In this document: in pieces, positions 8,385-12,927 of the stretch
Position numbering within the stretch: position 1 is the stretch's first letter
Layout: each line of letters begins with the position of its first letter
NCBI GenBank assembly: GCA_947475295.1
Contig: CANJLF010000002.1
Span: forward strand, 1 to 64,000
From: Fidelibacterota bacterium
GTDB taxonomy: Bacteria > Pseudomonadota > Alphaproteobacteria > Rhodospirillales > Rhodospirillaceae
Reading direction: 5' to 3'
Length of the DNA: 64,000 bases
Notes under the pieces: model-generated
What the model was told of the DNA's origin: nothing
Databases searched by the model: none
Seen by the model: the letters and a program-made list of their open reading frames with translations, nothing else
Program-made: the position numbers and the translations under genes

Positions 8385-8626
8385 CTGAACAGCTTCGCGA
8401 ATTTACGCGCCTTGCGGTTTTTCCAGGCGCCGTCGCGCCGGAGGCGCGCAAGTAAAGACATCACTCAAACAGCTTTGCGAATTTACGCGCCTTGCGGTTT
8501 TTCCAGGCGCCGTCGCGCCGGAGGCGCGCAGGCAAAGACATCACTCAAACAGCTTCGCGAATTTACGCGCCTTGCGTTTTTCCAGGCGCCGTCGCGCCGG
8601 AGGCGCGCAAGCAAAGACATCACTCA
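8381..8626 (-). repeat. Three tandem ~80-bp repeats derived from the 3' end of the DHS-like gene
   Basis: Direct repeats begin at 8388, 8468 and 8548, with periods of 80, 80 and 79 bp; the inner unit carries a one-base deletion at about 8577. The first ~45 bp of each unit match the 3' end of the adjacent DHS-like gene (fourth copy, from 8627). The remainder contains the hairpin CGCGCC-GGA-GGCGCG. On the minus strand each unit opens with ATG overlapping the previous TGA (TGATG). The outer two read as 26-codon frames ending GAWKNRKARKFAKLF, at 8381–8461 and 8461–8541; the inner one is frameshifted. There are no spacers, so this is not CRISPR. Confidence 0.9.
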
Positions 8627-9690
8627 AACAGCTTTGCGAATTTACGCGCCTTGCGCTTCTTCCAAGCGCCTCTGTGATAGGCGTCGGAGCCGATCAGCGG
8701 GATGACGCTGGACGCTTCGGCGAAGACCATCTGTTCATAGGTCGTGTCGACCTTGCCCCAGGAATTGGCTTCCTTGAGGGTTGAGGATGAGCACGCCCCG
8801 TCACGAACATCGGCAATGGTGATCTGGATGGCGTATTTATGCATTTCGGCATCGACGCCCAGAATTTCAGCGCAGACCACCGTGTCCTGCACAAAGTTCT
8901 TGGGCACGCCGCCGCCGATCATCAGCAGGCCCGTCGAGCCGGCCTTGATCTTGATATCGGTCAGTTCGCGGAAGTCGGCAATAGAATCGATGGTCATATG
9001 CGATTTCGGATTGCGCTTCTGGTGCAGCACCAGACCGAAGCCGGCCGAGCTGTCAGTGAACGCCGGGCAGAAGATCGGCACATCCATGTCGAAGCATGTC
9101 TCGACCAGGGACTCCTTCTTGCGGTTTTTACGGCCTTTCAGCCAGCGGCCCATTTCCTTGATGAAGGCGCGGCTCGAATAGGCGCGCGGCTCCAGGCTGT
9201 CGGCGATTTCGCCGATGACCTTGTCGCAATGCTGCAGCTCTTCCTCGTCGATATAGGTGTCGTAGATGCGGTCGATGTAATTGGCGCGCAGGTCGCGGTC
9301 GTCGATGAACTGCGAGCCCTGGTAGTGCTTGAAGCCGAGCGCTTCGAAGAAATCCATATCGACGATGGACGCGCCGGTGGAAACGATGGCGTCGATCATG
9401 CCGTACTTCACCATGTCGACGTAGACCTGCATGCACCCGCCGGCCGAGGTCGAGCCCGCCAGCGTCAGGATGTTCGAGCACTTGGAATCGTTCAGCATCA
9501 TATTGAAGATGGCCGCCGCACGGCCGGTGTCGCGCGAGGTGAACGACATCTTGCCCATGGCGTCGATGATGGGGCGCGCATCGAACGAGGTGATATCGAT
9601 GTGCTCGACCGGCGTCGAGAGCAGCTGCGCCTTGGTGTTCTTGCGCGGGTTCTTCGAGGCGGTCTTGGATTTCGTTTTGGGCGCGGCCAT
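8620..9690 (-). CDS. Deoxyhypusine-synthase-like polyamine enzyme
   Basis: 356-residue member of the deoxyhypusine synthase fold: NAD-dependent transfer of an aminobutyl-type group. Visible family features are LTLAGSTSAGG, AIVSTGASIVD, LLMIGGGVPKNFVQD and SWGKVDTTYEQ, in which Lys313 is the equivalent of the catalytic lysine of eukaryotic DHS. Bacteria lack eIF5A, so the acceptor is presumably a free amine; bacterial members are annotated as homospermidine or bis(guanidino)azanonane synthases. It lies 96 bp downstream of a PLP decarboxylase, which supports a polyamine role. The N-terminus is Lys/Thr-rich and the C-terminus is strongly basic (KKRKARKFAKLFE). That basic end is what has been tandemly duplicated downstream. 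Confidence 0.88.
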   Translation of the reverse strand: MAAPKTKSKTASKNPRKNTKAQLLSTPVEHIDITSFDARPIIDAMGKMSFTSRDTGRAAAIFNMMLNDSKCSNILTLAGSTSAGGCMQVYVDMVKYGMIDAIVSTGASIVDMDFFEALGFKHYQGSQFIDDRDLRANYIDRIYDTYIDEEELQHCDKVIGEIADSLEPRAYSSRAFIKEMGRWLKGRKNRKKESLVETCFDMDVPIFCPAFTDSSAGFGLVLHQKRNPKSHMTIDSIADFRELTDIKIKAGSTGLLMIGGGVPKNFVQDTVVCAEILGVDAEMHKYAIQITIADVRDGACSSSTLKEANSWGKVDTTYEQMVFAEASSVIPLIGSDAYHRGAWKKRKARKFAKLFE

Positions 9691-9786: not shown

Positions 9787-11214
9787 CTATTTTAGCTCAA
9801 GCGTATGGGAGTCGGTGTTACCGTCCGCGGACAATTCGGAGCCGGACTCGGCACCCGCCTCGGTCCCGGACAGCGGTTGCGGGGCAGGCTGGGTCAGCGT
9901 GGCCTGGGCGGGCCCGGACGCCGGCTGGGAAACGTCGCGCAGCCCCCCCCGCTTACGCGGGCGGTCCACGGCGAAGGCCGGCATGGATTCGGGCCAAACC
10001 GTCGCGGCCACCGACGAATGGAAGCCGTTGAAACGCGTCTGCATGGCCGAGCCGTAGGCGCCCAGCATGCCAATCTCGATCCAGTCGCCTTCCTGGGTAT
10101 CTTCGGGCAGCAGGAAGGGGCCCTTCATCTTGTCCATGTTGTCGCAAGTGGGGCCGTAGAACACGAACGGCACCAGCTTCTCGGACGGAAGGCGGGTGTT
10201 GGGCGTCGAGGAGTTTTTGCCGCTGCGGCCCATGGGGCGCACCAAACGCACCGGGAAACGCCAGTTCAGGGCGCCGGCGTCAAACAAGCTCCCGTAGGTA
10301 CCGTCGTTGATGAACAGGCGACGACCTTTGCGCAGCATCACGCGCACAAGCATGGAGGCGCCGGCGGCAACCATCGCGCGGCCCGGTTCGCACCACAGCG
10401 CCGCACCGGCGGCAATGCCGCCTTCGGCGATGAGCGGCTGCGCCGCATCAACAATCGCGGACATGAAGTCTTCCAGCGGCGGCGGCGTCATGTTCGGGTA
10501 AGTCGCGGGGAAACCGCCGCCCACATCCAGGACATCGACCTTCACCTTGGCTTTGCCGATGACTTCGCCCGCACGGCCGATGGCGGCACGATAGGCCGCC
10601 GGGTCCATGCACTGGGAACCGACGTGGAAGCAGATGCCGAGCTTGTAGGCGACCTTGCGGGCATGGCGCAGCAAGTCCGCCGCCGCCGAAGGCGCCGCGC
10701 CGAATTTGCCGGACAGGTCATAGGCCGCCGCGTTGCCGGAGACGGCCAGACGCACGAACAGCTTCAGATCCTTTGCCGATCTGGTTTCTTCCAGGATCTT
10801 CATTAGCTCGCCGACAGAATCCAGCGCGAACGTGCGCACGCCCAGCTTGTAGGCCGCGCGGATGGCGTCACGGGATTTCACCGGGTGCATGAAGTGCAGG
10901 GTCGCGGTCTTGGGGAAGAGGCTCTTCACCAAGCGCACTTCGTCCAGCGAGGCCACGTCGAATTGACGGATGCCGGCCGCATGCATGTGGCGCAGGAACT
11001 CCACGCCGGGATTGCACTTCACGGCATAGAGCACTTCGCCCGGGAACTGGGTGATGAAAGCTTGCGCCTGCGCGCGGATGCTTTCCGGGAATACGCACTG
11101 CACGGGCGCTTCGGGCTTCAGCCGCTTGGCCACGTCGTCAACGGAACGGAAAAGAGTTTCCGGCAGGTCGTTCGCTATGGGCTGTTCGAATTGACGCGCT
11201 TTGAATTGGACCAT
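9787..11214 (-). CDS. PLP-dependent ornithine/lysine/arginine-type decarboxylase (fold type III)
   Basis: Alanine-racemase-fold decarboxylase, 475 residues. PLP-lysine is Lys66 in LYAVKCNP; other signatures are CFHVGSQCMDP, DVGGGFPATYPN, WCEPGRAMVA and VFYGPTCDNMD (substrate-side Cys–Asp). The pattern fits ornithine decarboxylase best, but lysine and diamine specificities use the same scaffold, so substrate is not fixed. The last ~60 residues are a low-complexity Ser/Gly/Pro/Glu tail not needed for the fold. It is the first large gene of a two-gene polyamine unit with the DHS-like enzyme. A 600-bp leader region upstream contains two small reading frames and a hairpin (see 11332 and 11563), suggesting post-initiation control. 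Confidence 0.87.
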   Translation of the reverse strand: MVQFKARQFEQPIANDLPETLFRSVDDVAKRLKPEAPVQCVFPESIRAQAQAFITQFPGEVLYAVKCNPGVEFLRHMHAAGIRQFDVASLDEVRLVKSLFPKTATLHFMHPVKSRDAIRAAYKLGVRTFALDSVGELMKILEETRSAKDLKLFVRLAVSGNAAAYDLSGKFGAAPSAAADLLRHARKVAYKLGICFHVGSQCMDPAAYRAAIGRAGEVIGKAKVKVDVLDVGGGFPATYPNMTPPPLEDFMSAIVDAAQPLIAEGGIAAGAALWCEPGRAMVAAGASMLVRVMLRKGRRLFINDGTYGSLFDAGALNWRFPVRLVRPMGRSGKNSSTPNTRLPSEKLVPFVFYGPTCDNMDKMKGPFLLPEDTQEGDWIEIGMLGAYGSAMQTRFNGFHSSVAATVWPESMPAFAVDRPRKRGGLRDVSQPASGPAQATLTQPAPQPLSGTEAGAESGSELSADGNTDSHTLELK

Positions 11215-11331
11215 CTTTACTTTCGTTCCCGCAACTTCGTTTGTTCAACTAGCCGCTTTCGGCGGCGCCATACCATCAGCCCGGCCGGTTCCCCCCGACG
11301 GGCAGCAGACACTAACGGTGAAGCTGGGATT

Positions 11332-11478
11332 TCAACCCCGAAGAACATTAAACCTGGAGATGACAACCAAGTCGTGGCCGTCCCAGGCGATGTTGCGACA
11401 ATCGGTCAACGCAGCCGGCACCCGATTGTTGCGCGGGGTCGGCAAACGCAAACGTGGTCTCTTTTTTAGAAGGGGCAT
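11332..11478 (-). CDS. Candidate 48-residue leader peptide upstream of the decarboxylase
   Basis: Small frame with an unusually good ribosome-binding site: AGGAGG at 11485–11490, 6 nt before ATG. The peptide is basic at its start (KKRPRLRLPTPRNNR) and ends ISRFNVLRG. Its stop lies 117 nt before the decarboxylase ATG. Codons 16–28 coincide with an RNA stem-loop: 11395–11405 pairs with 11422–11432 (10 of 11 positions) around a 16-nt loop. Ribosome stalling or translation across this hairpin could alter folding downstream, as in known amino-acid and polyamine leader systems. I do not recognise the peptide; a conserved small protein of other function is the alternative. Confidence 0.5.
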   Translation of the reverse strand: MPLLKKRPRLRLPTPRNNRVPAALTDCRNIAWDGHDLVVISRFNVLRG

Positions 11479-11562
11479 GCACGGCCTCCTTTGATCAATC
11501 AGACGAACACTAAGTCCAACCAACGAAAGGACGCTTACGTCGTTGCTTAACGGCAAGCTGCT

Positions 11563-11595
11563 TTAGGCACGTGCGCGTAACGTCTGGGTTCGCAT
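11563..11595 (-). CDS. Candidate 10-residue Arg-rich leader peptide
   Basis: ATG at 11595 preceded by AGGAG at 11599–11603 (3-nt gap, rather close). It encodes MRTQTLRARA and then TAA. Three of ten residues are arginine, the precursor of ornithine and agmatine. It lies 84 nt before the 48-residue frame on the same strand, both leading into the polyamine decarboxylase. A frame this short can arise by chance, so the call depends on conservation in relatives. Confidence 0.3.
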   Translation of the reverse strand: MRTQTLRARA

Positions 11596-11819
11596 TTACT
11601 CCTATTGTGCGGGAAATCAAGTAATAATCTTTAACGCTCCGGATTTTTTTTGACTCTGTGCCTTTAGGCCAACAAGCTGGTGTTCGCCGGTCGGGGCCTC
11701 GGGGAAGTCTGGGCCCGCCGGCAACGGCGACGCTGTGGCGCAATCAAGGCGCCGCCGCCGCTGACGGAGGCGCACACCAGGCGCTGCCGACGCGCCAAAA
11801 ATTTGGGGAGAAAATCGCC

Positions 11820-12224
11820 ATGATCGCCGCATACCCGCTGAGCTCTCTCGTCGTGGTGCTTTCACTTTTTGTTTACATTTGGGCCGCGCTGAGAGTGGGC
11901 AAAGCCCGCGCAAAATATAATGTTCATGCGCCTGTCGTGGATGGTCCGCCGGAGTTCCAGCGGGTCTTCCGCGCGCATATGAACACACTCGAGCAGCTGG
12001 TGATCTTCCTGCCCGCCATGGCCTTGTTCGCGTCAGCGTGGGGCGATCCGGCCGCCGCCATCGTCGGCATCTTCTGGCCGATCGGGCGCCTGCTCTATGC
12101 CCTCGGCTACTTCAAAGCCGCCGAGAAGCGCGGCCCCGGCTTCGGCATTTCATTTCTGTCATCGGTGATCTTGCTGCTGGGCGCTTTGGCCGCCTTGGCG
12201 CGGCATCTGACCGAAACGCTCTAG
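11820..12224 (+). CDS. MAPEG family membrane protein
   Basis: 134-residue integral membrane protein of the MAPEG family (glutathione/eicosanoid-type enzymes). Four hydrophobic helices are evident: SSLVVVLSLFVYIWAA at the N-terminus, LEQLVIFLPAMALFAS, IFWPIGRLLYALGYF and SSVILLLGALAALA. The family signature FxRxxxNxxEQ is matched by FQRVFRAHMNTLEQL around residue 50, the glutathione-contacting loop. The ATG at 11820 is preceded by GGGGAG at a good distance; a longer frame from 11658 is not needed. Bacterial substrates of this group are largely unknown. The nearby gshA (13393) would supply glutathione. Confidence 0.87.
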   Translation: MIAAYPLSSLVVVLSLFVYIWAALRVGKARAKYNVHAPVVDGPPEFQRVFRAHMNTLEQLVIFLPAMALFASAWGDPAAAIVGIFWPIGRLLYALGYFKAAEKRGPGFGISFLSSVILLLGALAALARHLTETL

Positions 12225-12333
12225 CGGTAAGCACCCGAGTCGCTCCAGGCTGGCGCCTTTTGCTGGCCCATTGACGCCGGTCAAGGCCTCGGCCAACGGC
12301 CTGTCTCATTCTGTCCGTCCTGTGTGACAGGAG

Positions 12334-12927
12334 ATGACGACGGCCATGCCCTATGCGCTCCCCGACGCCCTCGGCCGGTTATCCCTTGACCATGTCGCCT
12401 TTCGCCGAGCGCTCAACGTATTAGACCGCCAGGTGAATGCGATCGCCCAATTCAAAGCCCCCGACTTTGACATCCTGAACGGACTGCTTCGCTATCTCGG
12501 TGAATATCCGGCGAACTATCATCACCCCGTCGAAGACGAGATCTACAATGCCCTTAAGATGCGATCCGCCGAACGGGCCTTCGAGGTCGTTCAGATCGAG
12601 CGTGAGCACGGCGAGGTTGCCGACAAGCACGAGCGTTTCGCCGAGGCGGTGTCGCGGGTTCTGGCTGATGCCGAGATTTCGCGGCAGGCCTTCTGCCAAA
12701 CCGCTCGGGACTTTATCGCCGCGGAACGGCGCCACATCCGCCGCGAAGAAGGGCTCTTCTTTTCCTATGCCTTGGAGCACCTGACGCCTGAAGATTGGGA
12801 AAAAATCGACAGCAAATTGCGCCGATCATTGTCACAGCCGGGCTATGGCGACCGGCTCAAGCAGTACGCCAAGATGCTCGACGATATTGCGGCCTGGGAA
12901 CAGGCCGATCTGCAAGCCACCGGTTAG
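12334..12927 (+). CDS. Hemerythrin-like domain protein
   Basis: 197-residue four-helix-bundle protein with the His/Glu pattern of hemerythrin-like di-iron sites: LDHVAFRRAL near the start, NYHHPVEDEIYNAL around residue 65, EREHGEVADKHERF, and ERRHIRREEGLFF near residue 135. Such cytoplasmic proteins bind oxygen or NO or help in metal and redox homeostasis; which applies here is unknown. Start ATG at 12334 follows CAGGAG; a second ATG at 12346 is possible. It overlaps the end of the convergent chorismate-mutase-like gene by 4 bp. Confidence 0.85.
   Translation: MTTAMPYALPDALGRLSLDHVAFRRALNVLDRQVNAIAQFKAPDFDILNGLLRYLGEYPANYHHPVEDEIYNALKMRSAERAFEVVQIEREHGEVADKHERFAEAVSRVLADAEISRQAFCQTARDFIAAERRHIRREEGLFFSYALEHLTPEDWEKIDSKLRRSLSQPGYGDRLKQYAKMLDDIAAWEQADLQATG

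Follow-up and report, generated by a model that had tools for sequence, protein, structure and literature searches.

The window, a stretch of 64,000 nt, carries on its reverse strand a gene for a PLP-dependent decarboxylase that is preceded by a leader region and followed by a gene of the deoxyhypusine synthase family (Table 1). The family of the enzyme was assigned by sequence match to Pfam, and no NCBIfam model scored over its cut-off. We placed the probable promoter by inspecting alignment A1 by eye and by the equivalent position in other families; a promoter scan of 11150-11800 returned no site, and no terminator-like site indicative of an intrinsic terminator was found in the same interval. 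The sequence of the spacer hairpin recurs in 8 of 13 aligned relatives, the spacers of the other five being shortened by the chosen start point. The divergent neighbors on the forward strand are, by Pfam, a MAPEG-family gene (11658-12224) and a gene with a hemerythrin domain (12334-12927), and pfam01124 (MAPEG) is among the genes named 3' of odc1 motifs in PMC8632094. Past the synthase gene, the translation of 8412-8705 shows FFQAPSRRRRASKDITQTALRIYAPC twice, so that this DNA is probably a direct repeat.

Table 1. Features of the decarboxylase locus, listed in the direction of transcription
Feature	Position	Strand	Detail
Probable promoter	11593..11620	(-)	TTGATT (11620-11615), 16 nt, TAAATG (11598-11593)
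Conserved structured RNA, speF/ar45-like	11476..11584	(-)	about 109 nt, ends at the leader start codon
Fold A	11530..11584	(-)	helix A, GACGUU (11584-11579) with AGCGUC (11535-11530), holding CGCACGUGCC (11575-11566) and AAGCAACGACG (11548-11538)
Fold B, predicted long-range stem	11479..11574	(-)	GCACG (11574-11570) and GCCU (11568-11565) with AGGC (11487-11484) and CGUGC (11483-11479); RNAalifold, MFE
P3 hairpin	11487..11531	(-)	UCCUUU...GGAC (11531-11514) with GUCU...AAAGGA (11504-11487); pairs part of the Shine-Dalgarno
Shine-Dalgarno AAAGGAGG of leader ORF	11485..11492	(-)	AGGAGG 11490-11485, 6 nt 5' of ATG
Leader ORF, 48 codons	11478-11332	(-)	ATG at 11478, TGA ending at 11332; protein MPLLKKRPRLRLPTPRNNRVPAALTDCRNIAWDGHDLVVISRFNVLRG
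Spacer, 117 nt	11215..11331	(-)	between leader stop and decarboxylase start; CCGC-N-GAAA-GCGG hairpin inside
PLP-dependent ornithine/lysine-type decarboxylase, 475 aa	9787..11214	(-)	Pfam Orn_Arg_deC_N 6.9e-41; family by sequence match
Deoxyhypusine-synthase-family gene, next in presumed operon	8620..9690	(-)	NCBIfam NF002699, 576.6 bits, cut-off 500

A first-pass annotation of this DNA had described the 48-codon frame with its AGGAGG, a stem inside that frame and a 10-codon frame upstream of it, and had proposed that they may constitute a regulatory leader sensing arginine, ornithine or polyamines. All of the described features are present in the sequence where it placed them. We compared them among relatives of the locus. 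The decarboxylase query gave matches in 55 of 61 near-relative genomes, low-identity paralogues included, and 139 stretches of a species-level genome collection encode a relative of the enzyme; we used the best 80 (79 loci). When these loci were searched with the peptide by tblastn, matches lay at the corresponding position, upstream of the decarboxylase. Directly after the same RNA, the leader frame is kept as 40-57 codons in 23 of the 24 species with upstream DNA (L047, without the upstream region, is not in the 24, and L002-L019, which appear to be genomes already among L031-L056, were not counted again). The start codon in the 24 species is ATG in 19, GTG in 2, ACG in 2 and TTG in 1, and the pairing of the leader with the decarboxylase gene is fixed throughout the clade. 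The remaining species, L045, has its leader ORF shortened to 11 codons with the core lost, an intact RNA and an open decarboxylase frame.

The peptide has a basic N-terminus of variable length and a conserved C-terminal stretch of 28 residues that runs to the stop codon, with the pattern VPAA..CR.IAWDGHDLVVISRF[DN]V[IL]R[DG]. For these last 28 codons, pN/pS was 0.295 in 19 species and 0.387 in all 23, L045 being left out for its shortened ORF and four divergent species being treated both apart and within the 23. The same 19 species gave 0.69 for the N-terminus, and 1.13 and 1.90 for the core in the two shifted frames, where stops also occur. Among close pairs, L037 differs from L038 and L051 by 7 and 6 synonymous changes without a nonsynonymous one, and L046 differs from L056 by 11 synonymous changes and 1 nonsynonymous change. 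In L032, L034, L049 and L052, where the RNA is intact, the peptide core is relaxed, with a pN/pS of 0.77 among the four. On these comparative grounds, the 48-codon frame is a real leader ORF under purifying selection in its C-terminal part. The protein-level conservation shows that the leader product or its nascent chain matters, and a conserved ORF upstream of the decarboxylase supports the regulatory leader proposed at first pass.

The selection on the protein and the fixed pairing with the decarboxylase gene could also be expected of a small protein acting in trans, for example an inhibitor of the decarboxylase, whose level alone would be set by the RNA. AlphaFold modeling of the peptide bears on this explanation in both directions: the low-confidence model holds two short beta strands, as a small protein might, but with a mean pLDDT of 52 and a pTM of 0.19 there is no confident fold, which weakly favors a nascent-chain role. 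We consider a trans-acting protein improbable, as the peptide had no match in Pfam or NCBIfam at E 0.001 or in the PDB at E 1, its conservation runs up to the stop codon, and L045 has lost the core while its decarboxylase frame stays open. Peptide matches occurred in one of 289 class genomes, which is its own, with no homologue outside the clade there. The peptide sequence is thus not required by the RNA in general.

The other two features of the first-pass annotation are present in the DNA and do not appear to be functional parts of the leader. The stem over codons 16-28 (11 nt, 10 pairs, 16-nt loop) is best regarded as a chance feature: an equally good stem was held by 374 of 500 codon-shuffled versions of the ORF, and base-by-base comparison with two relatives shows its 10 pairs in the window reduced to 9 (L031) and 7 (L036). 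Of 24 species, 18 retain the 10-codon frame (11595-11563), whereas in 6 it is interrupted. The frame falls within the nearly invariant RNA, where the probable -10 box, as read by position, overlaps its ATG. We read it as most likely a by-product of RNA conservation rather than a gene. Another hairpin, over the DGHDLVVI codons, is not claimed, since its z values relative to synonymous recoding varied widely among 19 sequences (mean -0.97, from -3.2 to +2.0).

By sequence comparison, the most conserved feature of the region is the structured RNA of about 109 nt at 11584-11476, which was absent from the first-pass annotation. Across the 24 related species with upstream DNA, the element shows little or no sequence difference. 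Folded on its own, the window RNA does not stand out (z -1.48; 16 of 200 shuffles were as good), and within the clade, where there is too little variation, RNAalifold found two-sided changes in 0 of the 32 pairs of the full structure. A covariance model of the element, R1, matched the window at 11584-11476 and was found in 25 of 73 genomes of the family, representing 5 of 23 genera. Among 385 class genomes, R1 matched its own genome and four distant ones. A decarboxylase frame follows in all four of these, confirmed by Pfam for L141, L142 and L144.

We also used a core model, R2, which was built from 17 sequences of several families, leaving out the P3 hairpin and containing no ar45 sequences. 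R2 matched 64 of the 385 class genomes, in 45 of 277 genera, and the window at 11584-11526. We examined 30 R2 loci, which are part of the matches and include the window itself (L175) and three repeats of L142, L143 and L144; a decarboxylase lies downstream on the same strand in 27. Eight of these enzymes are closest to that of the window and 19 to the L144 type; the L144 type and the window enzyme share 29% identity. The RNA therefore serves two decarboxylase subfamilies, and comparison establishes both the RNA and its link to a decarboxylase. Rfam at gathering thresholds detected none but one tRNA in 20 R2 loci and only two tRNAs in 19 relatives, and one element pattern had 0 exact matches in viral contigs.

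The first-pass annotation had suspected an overlap with the alphaproteobacterial speF element. Rfam RF00518 (speF, gathering 37 bits) gave no match in window positions 10500-12500, even permissively up to E 5, and 0 matches in the own genome as well as in 14 control genomes. Likewise, RF02347 (ar45, gathering 40 bits) matched neither the window nor the own genome. R2, however, recovers 6 of 8 leaders carrying ar45/speF without having been trained on them, with E values of 9.8e-5 to 0.0015 for L159, L111, L113, L110 and L165 and 0.044 for L114 (L159 and L165 were obtained through ar45); it misses L112 and L115, both of which have long inserts. The R2 matches in L111, L113, L110 and L114 fall exactly at the Rfam ar45 coordinates. 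Four speF-bearing leaders have Rfam ar45 immediately 5' of speF, L114 being just under the speF cut-off. The Rfam ar45 model scored 22.6 bits (E 0.48) on the element of L142, under its cut-off of 40. For comparison, other draws from the class contained Rfam ar45 in 8 of 240 and speF in 6 of 190, four of the latter over the cut-off. Because R2 finds the ar45 halves and the Rfam thresholds are not reached, the window element is, as judged by sequence, a divergent branch of the speF/ar45 leader group and not a member of either Rfam family. The suspected overlap thus holds as a relation to the alphaproteobacterial speF region and fails as a match to the Rfam family.

The window element shares with speF (RF00518) its position as an alphaproteobacterial leader of an ornithine-decarboxylase-type gene, here preceding a COG0019-type decarboxylase (Pfam Orn_Arg_deC, by sequence match), and the same P3 hairpin, in which the U-run is paired with AAGAGG in speF. 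With ar45 (RF02347), it shares the outer helix, CGCACGUGCC and AAGCAACGACG, followed by the U-run. The eight ar45/speF leaders differ from the window group in what follows their SD-like AAGAGG, where we saw UUG frames that vary in length and none conserved as a leader ORF, in their inserts of 38-150 nt as opposed to 18-19, and in a run of 5-6 U after helix A, which the window lacks. Moreover, ar45 is catalogued as an sRNA gene ('Alphaproteobacterial sRNA'), whereas the core in the window is the 5' part of an mRNA leader. The conservation of speF starts near the putative transcription start (Corbino et al. 2005, PMC1273637). A 148-nt transcript of S. meliloti bears both the RF00518 accession and the label C45 (PMC2873474), so that the overlap was already seen there. 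The accessible parts of PMC3766115 and PMC5596092 list speF without a ligand or mechanism. In the literature covered, which includes few subscription journals, we found no description of this leader peptide and no class-wide joining of ar45 and speF.

The pairing of the core was assessed in alignment A5, in which 59 loci chosen to cover families were aligned to the model. In A5, which is biased in favor of structure because it is fitted to the model and holds 14 of the 17 training loci of R2, 7 of 15 core pairs show two-sided changes among 54 distinct sequences, compared with 2.5 in shuffles (0 of 500 as high). Helix A carries four of the seven. It is 98.1% paired over the 54 sequences and has two-sided changes in 4 of its 5 pairs, for example GACG/CGUC to GCCC/GGGC in ar45 leaders. 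The compensatory changes in helix A exceeded those in all 500 shuffles and in all slid versions, and slid partners had 23-63% paired cells against 91.8% for the core pairs. In helix 2, one pair is not formed in 30 of the 54 sequences.

Of 72 distinct segments, 69 form at least four pairs between U-run and Shine-Dalgarno strand. This corresponds to 67 of 70 leaders once L167 and L168, repeats of L142 and L143, are removed, with failures in L144, L184 and L174, the last having its Shine-Dalgarno wrongly placed in this count. P3 pairs the U-run with the Shine-Dalgarno in 24 of 24 relatives of the window and in 8 of 8 ar45/speF leaders. On the strength of these comparisons, helix A and P3 are conserved pairings. 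At 2085-2204 of L045, P3 has an extra inner hairpin beside the shortened leader ORF.

Fold B is a prediction in which, within the clade of the window, GCACG.GCCU pairs with AGGCCGUGC and closes over the Shine-Dalgarno. When enforced, fold B pairs on average 4.9 of the 5 nt of GGAGG and fold A 1.7 of 5, and fold B is predicted to be more stable than fold A by 7.8 kcal/mol (mean over 24 species). Its stem is invariant in the clade but for one mismatch in 2 of 24 species and thus has no covariation support; in the second family described below, fold B is weak by eye. Since helix A would be complete before the Shine-Dalgarno is transcribed, we propose a kinetic switch between the two folds.

The sequences that follow the RNA differ among lineages. 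A second family has a different leader ORF of 33-39 codons that contains Arg and starts 5 nt after the Shine-Dalgarno in 13 of 13 loci, and L144 and L166 have a 31-codon ORF after the RNA. In L141, L174, L188, L189 and L191, from other families, the Shine-Dalgarno starts the decarboxylase itself, although the Shine-Dalgarno of L174 was wrongly placed in this reading, too. The decarboxylases of these five loci have a basic N-terminal extension and no leader stop codon. L179, L193, L194 and L195, where Shine-Dalgarno and ORF could not be read, were left out. As the Shine-Dalgarno leads straight into the decarboxylase in five loci, the RNA appears to act on the translation start of whatever follows it.

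The presence of the same RNA directly on decarboxylase starts without a leader ORF would also fit a metabolite riboswitch, in which the core binds a small molecule, the hiding and freeing of the Shine-Dalgarno is the expression platform, and the peptide only relays the translation status. The strong conservation of CGCACGUGCC and AAGCAACGACG across families and the pairing of the Shine-Dalgarno point in the same direction. However, the A. tumefaciens speF leader bound none of the six compounds examined by in-line probing, namely ornithine, lysine, diaminopimelate, putrescine, cadaverine and spermidine (PMC1273637), and a riboswitch leaves the amino-acid conservation of the leader unexplained. 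We therefore find a riboswitch doubtful, while giving it more weight than the other alternatives.

Attenuation at arginine codons is another explanation, in which slow decoding of Arg in the leader would sense Arg-tRNA, as proposed for Salmonella orf34. Arg accounts for 151 of 1,042 leader codons after the start (14.5%) compared with 6.8% in the decarboxylase, and rare Arg codons make up 37 of 151 in the leader against 16 of 694 in the decarboxylase. The leaders of two other families likewise hold 3-8 Arg in 31-39 codons. Yet other rare codons are enriched, too (68 of 587 vs 235 of 5901), most of all those of Leu (30 of 129 vs 34 of 878); the N-terminal Arg positions are not conserved; and the interval 11150-11800 lacks a terminator-like site. 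We accordingly give arginine-codon attenuation little credence.

The model that we favor, with a confidence somewhat better than even, is a divergent speF/ar45-type leader whose RNA switch gates a leader peptide, which in turn sets the expression of the decarboxylase. Here we infer the switch, the coupling step, the action of the nascent chain and the signal. The region would be the 5' leader of a polyamine-biosynthesis operon. Fold A would arise in the first-transcribed 5' half and would leave the core of the Shine-Dalgarno mostly free. Fold B, predicted to be the more stable in the complete RNA, would hide the Shine-Dalgarno together with P3. The gated Shine-Dalgarno would start the 48-codon leader peptide and not the decarboxylase, and whether and how far the leader is translated would decide the output of the decarboxylase. 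The coupling would most likely consist of protecting the transcript from termination or of changing the fold of the spacer. The conserved C-terminal 28 residues, whose position is fixed relative to the stop codon, would probably work as a nascent chain on the ribosome that is translating them. Precedents are Salmonella orf34 (PMC6386406) and the odc1 motif with its uORF (PMC8632094), and for the coupling the nearest precedent is Rho-dependent control as in Salmonella orf34 (PMC6386406).

In the literature available to us, the odc1 motif (uORF-25-1) is the closest described system. It resembles the window in being an alphaproteobacterial decarboxylase leader with a uORF and with a ribosome-binding site hidden in a stem, which is a prediction for the window. 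The start of the odc1 uORF works in an E. coli reporter (PMC8632094). However, the odc1 uORF encodes 11 aa and has two UUG starts spaced 2 nt apart (PMC8632094), whereas the window leader has an ATG and 48 codons. A decarboxylase leader of Parerythrobacter (L071, 800-890) has UUGAGUUG at the start, as described for odc1; it matched neither Rfam nor the two covariance models, searched up to E 1 for R1 and up to E 5 for R2. Enterobacterial ORF34, whose leader peptide is also named SpeFL, is comparable in that a short leader ORF with Arg codons precedes the gene of an inducible ornithine decarboxylase. Its peptide belongs to DUF2618, PF10940 (PMC6386406), whereas the window peptide matched neither this nor any other Pfam family at E 0.001. 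Furthermore, the sequestered ribosome-binding site is that of speF in the ORF34 system (PMC6386406) and that of the leader ORF in the window.

When speF was reported in 2005, it was an RNA element without a ligand; ar45 is filed as a separate sRNA. The comparison unites the two in a group that now covers 64 of 385 sampled class genomes, and in several lineages the hidden Shine-Dalgarno belongs to a leader ORF. An orphan RNA thereby becomes a model for polyamine control that can be tested and in which peptide modules can be exchanged. Tentatively, and with less confidence than in the model for the window, we suggest that the speF/ar45 RNA might not be a classical riboswitch but a kinetically folding gate that controls translation start across the class. 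Behind this gate, individual lineages would have placed nascent-chain sensors of different kinds, such as Arg-rich leaders or the AWDGHDLVVISRFDVIR leader here, or the decarboxylase itself. A gate with exchangeable sensors would explain why no speF ligand has been found.

Two further observations concern what follows the RNA in other families. Among 17 leader peptides that we picked from the 30 R2 loci, 12 have Ser-Ser near the C-terminus with AGT as the second codon (L167-L171, L173, L176, L178, L180, L182, L185 and L187, several of them close relatives of each other). In the corresponding decarboxylases, AGT accounts for 5 of 333 Ser codons, and 4 of the 12 peptides have a further Ser-Ser pair ending in TCG. 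In L192 (1-1330, reverse strand), the RNA is followed by a 14-codon ORF and then by a gene other than a decarboxylase. This gene, beginning MSSKHVAYDHRIVMVGFGSIGQG, had no NCBIfam match and presumably resembles homospermidine synthase.
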